Source: Rhodospirillaceae bacterium SYSU D60007
Lineage (GTDB): Bacteria > Pseudomonadota > Alphaproteobacteria > Reyranellales > Reyranellaceae
Length of the DNA stretch: 64,000 nucleotides
Assembly: GCA_003574685.1 (NCBI GenBank)
Contig: QOCQ01000009.1
Location: 62,001-126,000 of the forward strand
Direction: 5' to 3'
Of this stretch, positions 7,653 through 14,557 are shown one piece after another. The notes under the pieces were generated by a model. That model worked only from the letters and a program-made list of their open reading frames with translations, had not been told where the DNA came from and did no database searches. Every line of letters begins with the position of its first letter. Position 1 is the stretch's first letter. Position numbers and translations under genes: made by a program.

Positions 7653-8954
7653 TCAGTTCACCACTGCCTGGTAGACCAGATCACGCATCAGATACCGGAA
7701 CGGCAGCCGCTGCGCGGGGGCCTGCATCATCAGGATCGCGAACAGCTTTTCCTTCGGATCGATCCAGAAGTAGGTGCCATAGGCACCGCCCCAGTAATAG
7801 TCGCCGACAGAGCCCGGCAGGGGATTGCGGCCGGTGGCGGTGCGTACGCCAAAGCCCAGCCCGAAGCCTTGCCCCATCTCGCGGCCCGGCAGCAGCGCCT
7901 GGAATACTGGGGTCATGTCGGGCCCCATGCGCACCCCGGGCGGCAGATGGTCGGCGGTCATCAGCTCCACCGTCTTGCGTGAGATCAGGCGCACGCCGTC
8001 GAGCTCGCCGCCATTCAGCCAGAACTGGCAGAAGCGGGCGTAGTCCATGGCCGTTGACACCATGCCGCCGCCGCCCGATTTCCACGCAAGGTCGGCGGTG
8101 ACGGGTGGGATGGTAGGGGCGCGGCCAGTGGAGGGGTCGGCCTGCGGCACGGCGGCGCGGTCCTTCTTGCCTTCACCAGCGGAGAAGCCGGTGTCGGGCA
8201 ACTTCAGCGGCCCGGCAATGCGCTCGGCAATGAAACGGTCGAGGGGCATTCCGCTCACCACCTCCACGACGCGCCCCAGGACGTCGGTGGACATGCTGTA
8301 CTCCCAGATCGCGCCAGGCTGGTGCACCAGCGGCAGCTTCGCCAGCTTGGTGATCAGCTCGGCGTTGGTCTGGCCGTTGTCGAGCAGCTTTGCATCCAGC
8401 CAGGCCTGCTTCAGCGGTCCCCGACCGGGTGCACCATAGGTGAGTCCCGAAGTATGCCGCAGCAGGTCGTGCAGGGTCATTTCGCGCAATGCCGGCTCGG
8501 TCACCACCTCGATGCTGCCGTCGTCCTTCTTCTTCTCGATGCCGACCTTCATCTCCTTGAATTCAGGCAGATAGCGCGAAACCGGGTGGGCGATGGACAG
8601 CTTGCCTTCCTCGGCGAGCATCATGATCGCCAGGGAGACGAACGGCTTGGTCATCGAGGCGATGCGGAAGATCGCATCCGGCTTCATCGGCGCCTTGGCC
8701 TCGCGGTCGCGGAAGCCGAAGCTCTCCAGATATGCGATCCTGCCGTTGCGGCCTACGAGCACAACGGCGCCGGGAATTTCTCCCTTGTCCACGGCGCTCT
8801 TCATGGCGGCCGACAGGCGCTTCAGACGCTCCGCCGACATGCCCGTTTCTTGCGGCGTCTTCGCCGCCGGCACCCCTTGGGCGCGGGCATGCGGAAGGGC
8901 AACAGCAAACAACGCGACGCAGAAGGCAGTCGCGGCCATGCGTCTTGCGATCAT
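7653..8954 (-). CDS. Secreted serine hydrolase of the class C beta-lactamase / esterase family
   Basis: 433 residues. Signal peptide in residues 1-26 (core TAFCVALFAVAL). The beta-lactamase fold is shown by S100-M-T-K103, the catalytic Ser-x-x-Lys, and by Tyr219 (Y-S-M) in the position of the second motif. The family includes class C lactamases, esterases and D-aminopeptidases; the sequence looks more like the esterase/peptidase branch (LRHTSGLTYG; WGGAYGTYFWIDP near the C-terminus) than a clinical AmpC. The start at 8954 has GGAGG upstream; the longer reading to 9029 would cross a terminator hairpin. It stands at the head of the peptide ABC genes, which suggests that it trims or releases their substrate in the periplasm (inference). 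Confidence 0.88.
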   Translation of the reverse strand: MIARRMAATAFCVALFAVALPHARAQGVPAAKTPQETGMSAERLKRLSAAMKSAVDKGEIPGAVVLVGRNGRIAYLESFGFRDREAKAPMKPDAIFRIASMTKPFVSLAIMMLAEEGKLSIAHPVSRYLPEFKEMKVGIEKKKDDGSIEVVTEPALREMTLHDLLRHTSGLTYGAPGRGPLKQAWLDAKLLDNGQTNAELITKLAKLPLVHQPGAIWEYSMSTDVLGRVVEVVSGMPLDRFIAERIAGPLKLPDTGFSAGEGKKDRAAVPQADPSTGRAPTIPPVTADLAWKSGGGGMVSTAMDYARFCQFWLNGGELDGVRLISRKTVELMTADHLPPGVRMGPDMTPVFQALLPGREMGQGFGLGFGVRTATGRNPLPGSVGDYYWGGAYGTYFWIDPKEKLFAILMMQAPAQRLPFRYLMRDLVYQAVVN

Positions 8955-8997
8955 GGGAATTCCTCCCGGTCCAGTATAAACCGCTTTGCCCAAGCAG

Positions 8998-9022
8998 AAG
9001 CCCCGCCGCACGGGCGGGGCTT
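8998..9022 (-). terminator. Hairpin terminator after cyclase gene 1
   Basis: Perfect 10-bp stem AAGCCCCGCC / GGCGGGGCTT with a 5-base loop, about 24 bases past the stop of the upstream minus-strand cyclase gene. It separates the cyclase unit from the serine hydrolase/ABC operon. Confidence 0.7.
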
Positions 9023-9045
9023 GAGACAAAAGCTTGACGACGCCC

Positions 9046-10137
9046 TCAGGTCACCGCGATCGGCCCGCCATTGGAGCCGGTGCCGCCTTTGATCGGCGCC
9101 GGCGAGAATATGTAGACGAACTGGTACTTGCGGTCGGCGATCAGGGCCGTGAAATCCAGGTTCTCGTGATTGAAAATGCCGTGCTTGGCGATCAGCTCGC
9201 CGTGCACGACAAAGGCGAGGTTCTTGTCGGGATTGGGCACCACTTCGGTGGCCCATTGGTCGGCCCCCGTCAGGCAGCAACCCTTGTCGGCGACCCATTT
9301 GGCGACTTCAAGCCCGATACCGGGTTCGCCACCATTGAACTTGTCGTTGTTCTTCATCCACAGCTTGCCCCAGCCCGTGTTGAAGAACACCGCATCGCCT
9401 TCCTTGATATCCTCTTCCTTCATGTTCTGCTTCTGCATGGCGGCGCGCAGATCGGCGACTTTGATCTCCTCGCCGGCTTCCATCATCTTGCCCTTGACGG
9501 CTTCGATGTCGAACAGATGCCCGCGCGTAAAGAACGGTTTGACGTGCTCGATGCCAAGTTTCTTCATGCCGTAGGCACTGGCCATCTCGAACTCGGTGAC
9601 GCCGTTGTAGTAGCGCATCTCGTTCATGTCGCCATCCTTGCCCATCTGGATGCCGATATGGGCAAGTCCGTCGAATTGCGTGCCGGTCTGGCCGACTTCA
9701 GTCGCAAGATAGTCGTCGTGGTAGATCAGCTTGTTGGCACCGAACGGGCCGCCGGTTGGCGTGCCGGGAATGCGCAACGCGAAGGCACGCTCGCCGAATT
9801 TCGGCATGCCCGACTCGTAGACGCGGCCGATCCGGTAGATTTTGCCGTCCTTGATCCACTTCGCGGCATCCAGCACCTTGGCGGGCGTAATCCAGTTCGA
9901 GGCGCCAGCCTGGTCGTCCTTGCCCCACTTCGGATGCGGCCACCACGGCTTGTCGCTGAGTGCCGGCGTCGAGGCCTGCGCCACCTGGATATTCTGTGCC
10001 GAGGCGAATTTGTGCCCCATCGCGCCGAAGGCAGCGGCCGCGCCGCCGACCAGCGTTGCGGCCTTCAGGAAATCCCGCCGGTCGGCCGCCGGTGTATCAT
10101 TCTCAACAGTCTCCTGGCGGGTTTCGTCCTTGTCCAT
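9046..10137 (-). CDS. Tat-exported cyclase-family hydrolase, copy 1
   Basis: 363 residues from the ATG at 10137, which has an AGGAG site about 10 bases upstream. Residues about 20-50 carry a twin-arginine signal (DRRDFLKAATLVGG) with a hydrophobic Ala-rich stretch. The body belongs to the cyclase/isatin hydrolase/kynurenine formamidase-like family (PF04199), metal-dependent hydrolases of amides, lactones or lactams. The family's metal motif HxGTHxDxPxH appears here as GTQFDGLAH, so only the Asp and the last His are kept at this site; this variant is shared by all three copies in the window. Central residues are almost identical to copy 2, so these two arose by a recent tandem duplication. Substrate unknown; Tat export implies a folded, possibly metal-loaded enzyme. 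Confidence 0.85.
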   Translation of the reverse strand: MDKDETRQETVENDTPAADRRDFLKAATLVGGAAAAFGAMGHKFASAQNIQVAQASTPALSDKPWWPHPKWGKDDQAGASNWITPAKVLDAAKWIKDGKIYRIGRVYESGMPKFGERAFALRIPGTPTGGPFGANKLIYHDDYLATEVGQTGTQFDGLAHIGIQMGKDGDMNEMRYYNGVTEFEMASAYGMKKLGIEHVKPFFTRGHLFDIEAVKGKMMEAGEEIKVADLRAAMQKQNMKEEDIKEGDAVFFNTGWGKLWMKNNDKFNGGEPGIGLEVAKWVADKGCCLTGADQWATEVVPNPDKNLAFVVHGELIAKHGIFNHENLDFTALIADRKYQFVYIFSPAPIKGGTGSNGGPIAVT

Positions 10138-10204
10138 GGCTTCGCGCTCCTCCCGGGCCGGGACCCTCGGCGTGTCAGCGCGACACGCAGCCGGCCTGCA
10201 GGAA

Positions 10205-10247
10205 CTGTCCGCCGTTTCTTCAGCAGGCGTCAACGCACACAACTTGC
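10205..10247 (-). promoter_or_regulatory. Conserved upstream element / possible promoter of cyclase copy 1
   Basis: Read on the minus strand it contains GCAAGTTGTGTGCGTTGACG, then 17 bases, then GGACAG, about 68 bases before the ATG. The same block with few changes lies 66 bases before cyclase copy 2. TTGACG matches a -35 box; GGACAG is a poor -10, so this may be a promoter for an alternative sigma factor or a regulator site. Confidence 0.4.
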
Positions 10248-10284
10248 GCTGGACGGCAAGATTATTGATGCCGTTGCTGAGGAA

Positions 10285-10311
10285 ACGGGCGCCGCAATTG
10301 CCGGCGCCCGT
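10285..10311 (-). terminator. Hairpin terminator after cyclase gene 2
   Basis: Perfect 10-bp stem ACGGGCGCCG / CGGCGCCCGT with a 7-base loop, 16 bases past the stop of cyclase copy 2. The short TTTCC that follows on the minus strand is a weak T-run. It implies that copy 1 has its own promoter. Confidence 0.65.
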
Positions 10312-10327
10312 CACCTGTCCTGATGGG

Positions 10328-11407
10328 TCAGGTCACGGCGATTGGGCCACCGTTCGAGCCGGTGGCACCTTTGATCGGCGCCGGGGAGAAGATGTACGCG
10401 AACTGGTACTTGCGATCGGCAATGAGCGCCGTGAAATCGAGATTCTCGTGATTGTAGATGCCGTTCTTGGTGATCAGCTCGCTGTGCACGGGAAAGACGA
10501 GATTCTTGTCGGGATTGGGCACGACCTCGGTTGCCCAGCAGTCGGCACCCGTCATGCAGGCGCCCTTGTCGATCACCCACTTCGCCACTTCGAGGCCGAT
10601 GCCGGGCTCACCGCCATTGTACTTGTCATTGTTCTTCATCCACAGGTTGCCCCAGCCGGTGTTGAAGAACAGCGCGTCACCTTCCTTGATATCCTCTTCC
10701 TTCATGTTCTGCTTCTGCATGGCAGCGCGCAGGTCCGCGACTTTGATTTCCTCGCCTGCTTCCATCATCTTGCCCTTGACGGCTTCGATGTCGAACAGGT
10801 GGCCGCGCGTGAAGATCGGCTTCACGTTTTCGATGCCCAGCTTCTTCAGCCCGTAGGCCGTGGTCATCTCGAATTCGCTGATGCCGTTGTAGAAGCGGAC
10901 TTCAGTCAGATCGCCGTCCTTGCCCATCTGGATGCCGATATGACCAAGGCCGTCGAACTGGGTGCCGGTCTGGCCAATCTCGGTCGACACGAATTCGTCA
11001 TGCCCGACAAGTCGATTGGCACCGTATGACTCCGTCACGGGCGTGGTCCGCAGCGCAAAGGCGCGTTGGCCGTACATCGGCATCCTGGACTCATAGACAC
11101 GGCCCACGCGGTAGATCTTGCCTTCCTTGATCAGTTTGATCGCATCCAGCACCTTGGCCGGCGTGATCCAGTTGGAGGCACCCGCCTGGTCATCCTTGCC
11201 CCATTTCGGATGCGGCCACCACGGCTTGTCGGTAAGGGCAGGCGGCTGTGCAGCGGCCGGCGTCGTTTGCGCGGATGCGATCTGGCTCATCGCTCCCAAT
11301 GCCGCCGCGGCACCGCCGACCAGTGTCGCCGCCTTCAGGAAGTCACGCCGGTCCGCTGCCGGCACATCGTCATCAATCGGTTCTCGGCGGAGCTTGTTCA
11401 GGTCCAT
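10328..11407 (-). CDS. Tat-exported cyclase-family hydrolase, copy 2
   Basis: 359 residues. Twin-arginine signal DRRDFLKAATLVGG at about residues 19-32, identical to copy 1, followed by an Ala-rich core and a probable cut after IASAQ. PF04199-type hydrolase with the same variant metal motif, GTQFDGLGH. Long stretches are identical to copy 1 (for example TRGHLFDIEAVKGKMMEAGE and EEIKVADLRAAMQKQNMKEE). Differences cluster near the N-terminus after the signal and around residues 110-130, so the copies may differ in specificity. It lies divergently from the CobW gene across a 207-base spacer. Confidence 0.85.
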   Translation of the reverse strand: MDLNKLRREPIDDDVPAADRRDFLKAATLVGGAAAALGAMSQIASAQTTPAAAQPPALTDKPWWPHPKWGKDDQAGASNWITPAKVLDAIKLIKEGKIYRVGRVYESRMPMYGQRAFALRTTPVTESYGANRLVGHDEFVSTEIGQTGTQFDGLGHIGIQMGKDGDLTEVRFYNGISEFEMTTAYGLKKLGIENVKPIFTRGHLFDIEAVKGKMMEAGEEIKVADLRAAMQKQNMKEEDIKEGDALFFNTGWGNLWMKNNDKYNGGEPGIGLEVAKWVIDKGACMTGADCWATEVVPNPDKNLVFPVHSELITKNGIYNHENLDFTALIADRKYQFAYIFSPAPIKGATGSNGGPIAVT

Positions 11408-11472
11408 GGTCTCGGTTCCTCCCGCAGGCCGATCGTCTCCGGATGGGCACGCGGTTTCGACCCGCAGGGGAA

Positions 11473-11515
11473 ATGTCCCGCCGGTTGCTGCAAGACGTCA
11501 ACGCGAACAACTTGC
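11473..11515 (-). promoter_or_regulatory. Conserved upstream element / possible promoter of cyclase copy 2
   Basis: Minus-strand sequence GCAAGTTGTTCGCGTTGACG, 17 bases, then GGACAT, ending about 66 bases before the ATG. It mirrors the element before copy 1 in sequence and distance. Because the CobW gene starts about 100 bases away in the other direction, the site could control both units. Confidence 0.4.
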
Positions 11516-11614
11516 ACAAGACGCAGCAATGGGGCTGAGTGCCCTTGGCGATGGCAGCTTGGAGAACAGATCTTCACCTGCCAGGATGTCATCAATCACA
11601 CGACAGACAGGAAC

Positions 11615-12682
11615 ATGATGAGCCTGTTCGATCCTGACCGCTCCGCCGGCCGCATGCCGGTGGCGCTGATCACCGGCTTTCTTGGGAGCGGCAAGACCAC
11701 GCTACTGAATCACATTCTGCGCGATCCCCGGATGGCGCGCAGCCTGGTGCTGGTGAACGAATTCGGTGAGATCGGGCTCGACCATCTGTTCGTGCAATCC
11801 GTTGACGGCGACATGGTGCTGATGAAGTCGGGTTGCGTGTGCTGCACGATCAAGGGCGACCTTGAGCGGACCCTGCGCGATATTGCCCGACAGCGTCAGG
11901 CGCAGGCGCTGCCGCCGTTCGATCGTGTCCTTGTGGAAACGACCGGTCTTGCCGATCCCGCACCGATCCTGGCGCTGATGCTGAACAATCCGATGACGGC
12001 CCACGATTATCGGCTCGATGCGGTGGTGACGACCGTCGACCTCGTACACGGCGCCGCGCAGCTCGACGCGCAGCCCGAGGCGGTCAAGCAGGCAGCGGTC
12101 GCAGATCGTGTGCTTTTGACCAAGGGCGATCTTGCGTCGGACGAGCAGCGGGCGGAACTGGCGCATCGTCTCGCGATGCTCAATCCCGGCGCGCCGCGCT
12201 TCGAGGTGACGCAAGGTGACATTGACCCGGCCCTGTTGTTTGACGCCGGTCCCTTCGATCCGGCCGGCAAGACCGACAGGGTGCGGCAATGGCTGGCAGC
12301 CGAGAGCGTCGAAGGACATAGCCACGGACACGATCACGGCCACCATGATCACGCAGCGGCCGACCCCAATCGTCACGACGCGCGCATCGGCAGCTTCTGC
12401 CTGACCTGGGACGCGCCGCTGGAGTGGGATCAGTTCAACCGCTGGCTCATGGCCGTGCGTGCTAGCTGGGCCGACCGCCTGCTGCGGGTGAAGGGCGTGC
12501 TGAACATCCTCGGCGAGGCGCAGCCGCTGGTGATCCACGGCGTGCACCATGTGTTTCACCCGCCGACCCTGCTGGCGCACTGGCCCGATGAGGATCGCCG
12601 CTCGCGCCTCGTATTCATCACGCGCGACCTGCCGCGTGCCGACGTCGAGGCGAGCTGGCGCGAAATGTCAGAAGCGGCCTGA
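11615..12682 (+). CDS. CobW/COG0523-family GTPase, likely metallochaperone
   Basis: 355 residues. Walker A GFLGSGKT at residues 21-28, the diagnostic GCVCC motif (family CxCC) at 73-77, and the G-domain Asp/Lys segment LLTKGD further on. At about residues 233-247 there is a His-rich run (GHSHGHDHGHHDH), typical of zinc- or other metal-handling members, before the CobW C-terminal domain. G3E-family GTPases of this type deliver metal to client enzymes. The start is one of two adjacent ATGs (11615 or 11618); much longer readings upstream are antisense to cyclase copy 2. It sits between metal-dependent cyclase genes, which are plausible clients (inference). I saw no cobalamin riboswitch and no clear Zur box upstream. 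Confidence 0.9.
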   Translation: MMSLFDPDRSAGRMPVALITGFLGSGKTTLLNHILRDPRMARSLVLVNEFGEIGLDHLFVQSVDGDMVLMKSGCVCCTIKGDLERTLRDIARQRQAQALPPFDRVLVETTGLADPAPILALMLNNPMTAHDYRLDAVVTTVDLVHGAAQLDAQPEAVKQAAVADRVLLTKGDLASDEQRAELAHRLAMLNPGAPRFEVTQGDIDPALLFDAGPFDPAGKTDRVRQWLAAESVEGHSHGHDHGHHDHAAADPNRHDARIGSFCLTWDAPLEWDQFNRWLMAVRASWADRLLRVKGVLNILGEAQPLVIHGVHHVFHPPTLLAHWPDEDRRSRLVFITRDLPRADVEASWREMSEAA

Positions 12683-12692
12683 CATTGCGACA

Positions 12693-12720
12693 GAAGGGCT
12701 GGCGTCACAGCCAACCCTTC
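12693..12720. terminator. Bidirectional hairpin between cobW-like gene and cyclase 3
   Basis: GAAGGGCTGGC / GCCAACCCTTC pair with a single mismatch around a 6-base loop, 10 bases past the CobW stop and 21 bases past the end of the converging cyclase gene. It probably serves both. Confidence 0.65.
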
Positions 12721-12741
12721 GCGTCATCCCTGGTCGCGCGC

Positions 12742-13689
12742 CTACCACATCGCGACGGGGTTGATGATCATCTGTACGGCCCCGCGGATGCGAGCCTGCC
12801 CGAGCACGAACATGAACTCCTTGACGTCCTCTCTGGCAAGACGGCCGGTGTTCATTGTCTCCAGAATATAGATGCCGTTGTTCTTCAGCAGATGGGCGTG
12901 GGCGTAGAATATCTTCTGGCCCTTCGGTGGCGGCACTACGTCGAGGCCCCAGGTGTCGGCGCCCACTGCCATCGGACTGAGCGATGCGAGGAACGCGCCG
13001 GCATCGTTATCAATGCCCGGTTCACCTGATCCCCAGGCCTTGGGGTCCTTCTCGAACATGCCGTCAGTCCAGCCGGTGTGAATCAGCACCACATCGCCCT
13101 GGCGGACTTCGATGGCTTGCGCCTTCATCGCTGCCTTGAGGTCATCGGTGGTGATCGGCTGGCCCGACTTCATGGTTTCAACGCCGAAATGCTTTGCCAT
13201 GTTGATGAGCACGCCGCGGCCGACCAGCGGCGGGATGTTGTGCGTGCCGAGCTTCTTCAGCCCGGTAATGTCGATGAAGTCGGTGGCCTTGTTGCAGTTA
13301 TAGTACATGCCGCTCTCGCCAAGATGGCCGAGACCATCGAGCTGCGAGCCGACACCGAACCAGAGCTGGGCCAGGTCATCGTTGTAGACCACCGGCCACC
13401 CAACGTCCTTTTCAAGGCTGCGATCATTGTGCTGGCCAGGCTGGACAACCTGCAGGGTGACGCCACGCGGCGGGTAGGCCGGTGTCTTGGAATCAATGAC
13501 GATGCCCAGCGGATGACTCTGGCCCTTCTTCACCAGCTTGGCCGCCATCATTACCTGTTCCGGCGTGACATAATTGGCGGCGCCGATCTCGTCGTTCGGC
13601 CCCCATTTAGAGTGTTTGCAGTCCTGGGCAGCAGCGGTCCCGGCGGAGGCGACCGCCGCCGCTGCAGCAAGCAGCCGGCGTGTCCGCAT
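12742..13689 (-). CDS. Secreted cyclase-family hydrolase, copy 3 (divergent)
   Basis: 315 residues. Sec-type signal peptide in residues 1-21 (TRRLLAAAAAVASAGTAAAQ); unlike copies 1 and 2 it lacks a clear Tat RR-FLK motif. PF04199-type hydrolase with the related metal motif SQLDGLGH and the W-GPNDEIGAANYVTP opening that matches the KWGKDDQAGASNWITPAKVL opening of copies 1 and 2. Overall similarity is much lower, so this is an older paralogue. Two cysteines and an extended Pro-rich loop (TPAYPPRG) are specific to it. It converges on the CobW gene. Confidence 0.85.
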   Translation of the reverse strand: MRTRRLLAAAAAVASAGTAAAQDCKHSKWGPNDEIGAANYVTPEQVMMAAKLVKKGQSHPLGIVIDSKTPAYPPRGVTLQVVQPGQHNDRSLEKDVGWPVVYNDDLAQLWFGVGSQLDGLGHLGESGMYYNCNKATDFIDITGLKKLGTHNIPPLVGRGVLINMAKHFGVETMKSGQPITTDDLKAAMKAQAIEVRQGDVVLIHTGWTDGMFEKDPKAWGSGEPGIDNDAGAFLASLSPMAVGADTWGLDVVPPPKGQKIFYAHAHLLKNNGIYILETMNTGRLAREDVKEFMFVLGQARIRGAVQMIINPVAMW

Positions 13690-13789: not shown

Positions 13790-14557
13790 TCAGAAGATCA
13801 ATTCGGGCGCCTGCGGCACGGACTTCCAGAACTCGGAATCGTGACCGAAGAAAATGCGGGCGCCATTGCGCTCGAGGGCTGCCAGCCGGTCGAGAGAGGC
13901 CAGCATTGCCTCACGGTCGTGCACGAAGCGCGGGAGGCGGCGGTCGCGGAGCGTGCGGCAGAAGTAACAGGCGTCACCGGCCAGCACGACCTCCCCAGAA
14001 TCGACGCGCACGCGTAGCGACTGGTGGCCCGGTGTATGGCCATATGTCGGGATGCAGACCACCCGGCCGTCGCCGAACAGGTCGTGCTCACCATCGGCCA
14101 GTAGCAGGGGATGGCCGTGGTCGAAATCCTGCTTGTAGAAGCCGGACTTCGCGGCAAGCTCGGGCGTCTGCGCCGCCTCCCATTCGCGGCGCTGCACCAC
14201 AACGGTGGCATTGGGGATGAGCTGGTTGCCGCCGCAATGATCGAAATGCAGGTGCGAGTTGACGATGTAGTTGATCCGGCCGGGATCGCGGTCGATGGCC
14301 TGCAGCCGCCGGTCGATCTCGTCGCCAGGCAGGAACGTATCGAAGCTGAAGATGCGCGCCACGCGCTCGCCCAGCCGGCCGGCCGCGTCGGTTTGCAGGG
14401 AAGGGTGCATGCCGGTGTCGAACAGCACCATGCCCTTCGGATGCTCGACCAGATAGGAGGGGACCGGCAGCAGCACCGGCCCGTCCTCGCCTTCGATCAT
14501 GTCCTTCAGCCGCCCCGTGATGCGGCCGCATGTCATGGCGTAGAGCCTGACGGTCAT
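13790..14557 (-). CDS. MBL-fold metallo-hydrolase, N-acyl homoserine lactonase-like
   Basis: 255 residues. The metallo-beta-lactamase motif HLHFDH at 102-107 (HxHxDH), followed by a His in YGHTPGHQSL and Asp in LAGDACY, gives a full two-metal site. Length, the early LYAMTCG start and FDTGMHPSL are typical of the AttM/AhlS lactonase group, which opens the ring of acyl homoserine lactones; related members act on other lactones, so quorum quenching is possible but unproved. It follows gatB by 25 bases on the same strand and is probably co-transcribed. Confidence 0.85.
   Translation of the reverse strand: MTVRLYAMTCGRITGRLKDMIEGEDGPVLLPVPSYLVEHPKGMVLFDTGMHPSLQTDAAGRLGERVARIFSFDTFLPGDEIDRRLQAIDRDPGRINYIVNSHLHFDHCGGNQLIPNATVVVQRREWEAAQTPELAAKSGFYKQDFDHGHPLLLADGEHDLFGDGRVVCIPTYGHTPGHQSLRVRVDSGEVVLAGDACYFCRTLRDRRLPRFVHDREAMLASLDRLAALERNGARIFFGHDSEFWKSVPQAPELIF

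Follow-up and report, generated by a model that had tools for sequence, protein, structure and literature searches.

What is a candidate metal-inserting GTPase doing beside the genes of exported hydrolases? The question is raised by a locus of the soil bacterium Rhodospirillaceae bacterium SYSU D60007 that lies in the 64,000 nucleotides analyzed here (contig QOCQ01000009.1, positions 62,001 to 126,000; G000:C58:62001-126000, within a 5.3 Mb genome; hereafter the window). In this locus, the gene of a COG0523 (CobW/P47K) G3E GTPase (11615..12682, plus strand) stands head-to-head with that of CycB (10328..11407, minus strand), a PF04199 cyclase-family hydrolase with a signal for twin-arginine translocation (Tat), across a divergent intergenic region (11408..11614, no strand); two further PF04199 proteins, CycA and CycC, are encoded on either side. 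A sequence-only reading of the locus had proposed a dedicated metal-loading route for all three cyclases, and our analysis partly supports this interpretation. We observed that the CycB–GTPase adjacency is conserved in relatives, that a COG0523 neighbor accompanies the Tat signal across the cyclase subfamily, and that many relatives carry Zur-type boxes at the pair. We put the chances at about even that this GTPase serves specifically to insert metal, in the cytoplasm, into the cyclase(s) exported by Tat.

The sequence-only reading had itself named a recurrent neighborhood as its test, and the neighborhood does recur. Scanning named genomes with CycB yielded 56 loci, and at 55 of these tblastn placed a divergent GTPase gene directly beside the cyclase gene; the single exception was L053 from Hwanghaeella. 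Most of these cyclase-selected loci belong to Reyranellaceae, and Reyranella and Vineibacter are the nearest relatives by CycB; two metagenome-assembled genomes titled Asaia bogorensis and Rhizobium sp. (loci L010 and L020) bear a Reyranella-type locus, and these titles look wrong. The pair was found in nine coded families (f1, f13, f81, f88, f94, f108, f123, f128 and f146, with about 1.2 kb separating the two genes in f146) plus Bradyrhizobium. A class-wide search returned the cyclase at E ≤ 1e-40 in at least 51 of 385 genomes, counting the best five or fewer candidates per genome, and the GTPase at E ≤ 1e-85 in 92 of 385; a phylum search at E ≤ 1e-60 gave 3 of 398 genomes, all from the same class, and every one of the 16 records from a plasmid search showed 40% identity or less. 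The whole 5.3 Mb genome of the window has five Pfam matches to PF04199 and six to PF02492, so that by our estimate the probability of a random gene having a PF02492 gene within about 1 kb is well under 1%. In two relatives, classical His-motif PF04199 genes lie beside the GTPase or the pair (L019:7716-8768, L041:12681-13709), which suggests that paralogues collect at the locus.

The GTPase could instead feed another local enzyme and not the cyclase. A PF00144 serine hydrolase gene (7653-9029) and a gene for an AttM-like lactonase-fold protein (13790-14557; its best NCBIfam match, below the cut-off) flank the locus in the window and co-travel with it within Reyranellaceae; the metallo-beta-lactamase fold of the lactonase is a metal-enzyme fold, and one genome, G081, has the GTPase and the serine hydrolase without the cyclase. 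However, neither gene accompanies the pair outside Reyranellaceae: GatB, the lactonase and the serine hydrolase are found with it solely inside Reyranellaceae-type loci, and in Bradyrhizobium, Desertibaculum and others the pair is kept and the remaining tested flanking genes are gone. Serine hydrolases, moreover, require no metal, and we consider such a local client very improbable.

The export signal carries the argument further. We compared 115 distinct cyclase sequences of the subfamily (motif Q.GTQFD[GA]), taking about 8 kb per side for distant cyclases where the contig allowed and scoring linkage as a COG0523 gene within 5 kb. All 78 Tat cyclases are linked (74 of 74 once loci found via the GTPase query are excluded), against 1 of the 37 non-Tat sequences; among the 36 unlinked non-Tat sequences, 28 have at least 5 kb on both sides and 8 have short flanks, one of the latter (L097) being a fragment without its N-terminus. 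The unlinked cyclases are not cytoplasmic and carry ordinary signals of the general secretory (Sec) pathway. For 29 new loci, the signal class was predicted beforehand from alignment starts alone; a COG0523 gene was then present at all nine Tat loci and absent from the available flanks of 19 of the 20 Sec loci, with L200 as the exception. Six further loci, expected to be Tat by alignment start (an expectation not noted beforehand), were all linked, one of them (L252) through a weakly scoring GTPase gene truncated at the end of its contig, which brings the new loci together to 15 of 15 for Tat and 1 of 20 for Sec. The NCBIfam Tat model matched 18 of 21 rows in one Tat-rich alignment, 8 of 27 in the other and none of the 31 rows in the Sec alignment A2, which omits 5 of the 36 Sec rows; the low count in alignment A1 indicates that many Reyranella signals are atypical. 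The apparent Tat signal of L197 is a false regular-expression match upstream of the real start, and this locus was classed as Sec. Tat and Sec forms sometimes share one genome (G111, G320, G801 and G802).

A second feature separates the two forms. Of 31 Sec rows, 27 carry CxxCxH at the conserved His, compared with none of the 48 rows in the two remaining alignments, CycC and L053 among them; its confinement to Sec rows fits different folding compartments. Many rows of A2 also have a Cys pair just past the signal peptide. CycC (12742..13689, minus strand; GxGSQLDGLGH) is a paralogue that groups with Sec-like cyclases having no COG0523 gene nearby in relatives, and its own neighborhood is not kept there. 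The proposed coupling of GTPase and cyclases gains support from linkage that tracks the Tat signal across the subfamily, but gains none for CycC, and we rejected the idea that CycC belongs to a conserved three-cyclase unit.

The gene identities had for the most part been read correctly. CycA, CycB and CycC match PF04199 with 73.8, 70.5 and 73.6 bits, respectively (Pfam cut-off 23.1), and the two Tat signals are recognized by the NCBIfam Tat model TIGR01409 (CycA 21.2 and CycB 25.4 bits; cut-off 16.7), to which CycC has no match above the cut-off. CycA (9046..10137, minus strand; Tat signal DRRDFLK, motif QTGTQFDGLAH) is a tandem copy with 81% identity to CycB, and its start is most likely 10137 rather than the GTG that opens the open reading frame (ORF) listing. 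The GTPase, described earlier as a G3E protein with CxCC, has the PF02492 and PF07683 (CobW_C) domains, the P-loop GFLGSGKT and the sequence GCVCC, whose Cys74-Val-Cys76-Cys77 motif was read at 11834..11845 (plus strand); P-loop, CxCC and CobW_C domain are the features of a COG0523 G3E GTPase, and all are present. Its scores are below the cut-offs for CobW of cobalamin synthesis (TIGR02475, 124.4 against 332.1 bits), for the ZigA zinc chaperone (NF038288, 110.4 against 600) and for the PRK11537 GTPase equivalog (NF008578, 203.2 against 361), and YjiA is the nearest solved structure. The His-rich run HSHGHDHGHHDH (12317..12352, plus strand) counts 12 residues, not the 13 given before. As a hallmark of the pair this run was rejected: HxHxHxH is present in 66 of 75 linked COG0523 rows and in 24 of 26 other rows, whose flanks are too short to call linkage, and is ordinary across COG0523.

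The cyclases resemble a characterized enzyme. By alignment, the CycB motif Q146-x3-Q150-x-D152-x3-H156 (10940..10972, minus strand) and the residues R115, H308 and E321 have equivalents in MGS0169 (PDB 5ibz), an esterase reported to be stimulated by Mn more than by Mg, and by these more than by Co and Ni; mutating the Gln/Asp residues of its Gln-x3-Gln-x-Asp-x3-His motif affects the enzyme, and trans-dienelactone hydrolase is said to bear the same Gln motif (PMC5341072). PF04199, QxxxQxDxxxH and the Arg, His and Glu positions are common to MGS0169 and CycA/CycB, in which this signature is complete; in CycC, Gly replaces the first Gln. The classical PF04199 motif HxGTHxDxPxH is not found in the three cyclases, which have QTGTQFDGLxH (CycA/CycB) and GVGSQLDGLGH (CycC). 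The motif had been called unusual and common to all three; it does depart from the classical form and is shared by CycA and CycB, but CycC deviates from it, and we rejected its novelty because it is a described esterase/lactonase variant (PMC5341072). Q150 is invariant in the alignment and Q146 only nearly so. In PDB sequence searches, both CycB (E 2.3e-26) and its family profile matched 5ibz alone, and this structure also ranked first in a fold search. The AlphaFold model is weak (predicted local distance difference test score, pLDDT, 62.7) and was not used to read the metal site. Unlike in our system, the accessible sections of PMC5341072 mention neither a Tat signal nor a GTPase partner for MGS0169, and they describe a crystal without metal.

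Zinc regulation provides a second reason for the cyclase and GTPase genes to be neighbors. Tat cyclases also stand beside one or two other COG0523 genes (L142, L144, L159, L183-L185, L189, L190 and L255), and at L142 these lie with ZnuA, ABC-3, ABC ATPase and WD40 genes and a Fur-like ORF that was recognized by eye only. Inside zinc-uptake clusters, an intact COG0523 gene is adjoined by genes for COG0523 proteins with CxCC and CobW_C and no P-loop (L142:6728-7777, L099, L144:9379-10428). Upstream of zinc-cluster genes there are GTTA-N5-TAAC-type palindromes, a form of site reported for Zur in proteobacteria (PMC4176598). We built a matrix from 11 training sites before znu/COG0523 genes or elsewhere in zinc clusters, none of them before a cyclase, and took p-values from a first-order Markov shuffle, an earlier mononucleotide shuffle being weaker. 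At p ≤ 0.02, a Zur-type box precedes 49 of 79 Tat cyclases, 3 of 35 Sec cyclases of the subfamily (a rough count, as some Sec starts are approximate and that of L206 is clearly wrong) and none of 19 others. Across the 887,076 bases of the 56 named loci, 32 of the 33 sites scoring at least 13 lie within 260 nucleotides upstream of a Tat motif. Their position is near-constant: for the 29 regions (of 52) with a score above 12, the median distance is 25 nucleotides to the start of the GTPase gene and 74 nucleotides to that of the cyclase gene. Because the Reyranella sites share common ancestry, their counts are not independent. The matrix also matches before the best ZnuA gene in six of six Reyranellaceae genomes (scores 19.9-26.5), so that the motif very likely represents their Zur box. 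One genome, G023, has just three exact pattern sites, one at the cyclase/GTPase pair and one at znuA.

These observations allow a different account, in which cyclase and GTPase share a zinc-starvation module: the cyclase would be a Mn-using zinc-sparer or a scavenger, and the GTPase would give zinc to other clients. The boxes that precede the pair at most Reyranella loci and the cyclase gene in zinc clusters, the same motif at znuA, the presence of the cyclase within ZnuABC/Fur/WD40 clusters with other COG0523 subfamilies, and the boxes at 3 of 35 Sec cyclases all agree with it. Among Sec cyclases, L153, L150 and L206 have such boxes with no COG0523 gene nearby, so that in certain lineages zinc starvation may act on the cyclase gene in its own right. 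The account is weakened because Bradyrhizobium and the window's genus keep the pair without a box, and the zinc module alone leaves the Tat/Sec split unexplained; we regard it as rather unlikely. In the window, 11408-11614 holds no Zur-type box (best score -5.3, against 19.9 before znuA of the same genome), and we rejected Zur control for the pair at this locus; the matrix scan found no box before the pair in the window's genus or in Bradyrhizobium, and in the former genus such control of the pair appears either to have been lost or never to have existed. In G001 of the same genus, a ZnuABC-like transporter without a Zur-type box (L237:5103-7722) lies about 5 kb from the pair.

The Tat/linkage correlation is wide, yet it may reflect very few evolutionary events, and several results weigh against a dedicated inserter. 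In cyclase trees from rows thinned above 85% likeness, a 39-row tree (14 rows dropped: long branches, the CycC group and the fragment L097) has two changes of Tat state and three of linkage; a wider quick tree, which includes some long rows and a fragment that was classed as Sec, has four and eight. A single Tat clade is not rejected by the approximately unbiased (AU) test (p-AU 0.11), and there are only one or two independent pairs, leaving a sign test without power; support is good for the 14-row Sec clade. The GTPase tree (thinned at 78%) speaks for the inserter: it groups the divergent linked genes in a single clade with a Shimodaira-Hasegawa-like approximate likelihood ratio test (SH-aLRT) value of 93, apart from unlinked genes, most of which fall into another clade, and no cyclase was found at any of the 11 GTPase loci inspected with wider flanks, that of G081 among them. 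Against the inserter, the linked clade has one unlinked member, the basal GTPase of G081, for which no cyclase was found. The zinc-cluster GTPases and the GTPase of L143 are placed elsewhere on this tree; the zinc-cluster neighbors are other COG0523 subfamilies, and zinc regulation by itself may account for their adjacency. At L200, a COG0523 gene follows a Sec cyclase gene at a distance of 21 bp. Metal preferences may also mismatch, with COG0523 proteins other than CobW reported to prefer Zn (PMC7895991) and the motif relative of the cyclases preferring Mn. The few changes on the tree and the predominance of Reyranellaceae among the loci would suit a merely historical linkage, that is, one ancient gene order with no functional coupling, in which Tat and Sec are clade markers. 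Against this, the pair stayed while all other tested flanking genes were lost in Bradyrhizobium and others, different COG0523 subfamilies recur next to the cyclase, and loss of Tat accompanies loss of linkage; we consider such an origin improbable.

G3E GTPases insert metals, and Tat carries folded proteins; the simplest joint reading of the two is loading before Tat export. In a dedicated-inserter mechanism, the GTPase would bind a divalent metal through its CxCC/His ligands and hand it over, driven by GTP, to the folding cyclase; Tat would then export the metal-filled enzyme, which would work in the periplasm as a hydrolase (esterase, lactonase or amidase). Sec-exported relatives would leave unfolded and acquire metal outside, with the GTPase unneeded. 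In many Reyranellaceae, Zur is predicted to derepress the pair under zinc shortage, which would fit a need to secure or swap metal at low zinc. We infer the transfer, its place before export, the substrate and the metal, for which Mn and Zn are the main candidates. More tentatively, and with somewhat greater doubt, we propose that the subfamily keeps a dedicated COG0523 inserter exactly when it is exported folded and none, with CxxC near the metal site, when it is exported unfolded, the pair being Zur-wired in many species.

Several known systems resemble parts of this proposed mechanism. Nha3, the activator of Fe-type nitrile hydratase, is likewise a COG0523 GTPase with a metal-enzyme client and an essential CxCC (PMC2770081, PMC9164220); its client has a buried Fe site, whereas the client proposed here is an exported PF04199 hydrolase. 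In the cyanobacterial cupins MncA and CucA, the route sets the metal-supplying compartment: MncA entraps Mn in the cytosol and exits by Tat, and CucA exits by Sec (PMC8867077). Their fold is different, and no dedicated GTPase is described in the accessible sections of that article. The Zur-regulated COG0523 genes of the yciC/zrpX type share the GTTA-N5-TAAC-type site and place COG0523 in Zur regulons (PMC4176598); in a word search of four zinc/Zur articles, 'cyclase' was not found. Haas et al. offered as one hypothesis that a chaperone supplies zinc enzymes with a different metal, and trans-dienelactone hydrolase, a bearer of the Gln motif, is covered by the references they give as examples (PMC2770081). 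Among open-access articles we found no link between COG0523/CobW or Zur and PF04199 cyclases, although an earlier mention is possible. AibG was rejected as a G3E comparison, as it has been shown to be a Rieske protein.

For many COG0523 GTPases no client has been identified (PMC9164220), and here one COG0523 clade points to one candidate client with a cheap activity assay. If the proposal is true, an exported enzyme would be the client of this COG0523 clade, and the subfamily would offer a natural Tat/Sec switch experiment. With Tat and Sec forms side by side, both the cargo of these GTPases and the way in which exported enzymes obtain the right metal become testable. A further prediction of the analysis is that alphaproteobacteria have a zinc-starvation gene of a new kind.

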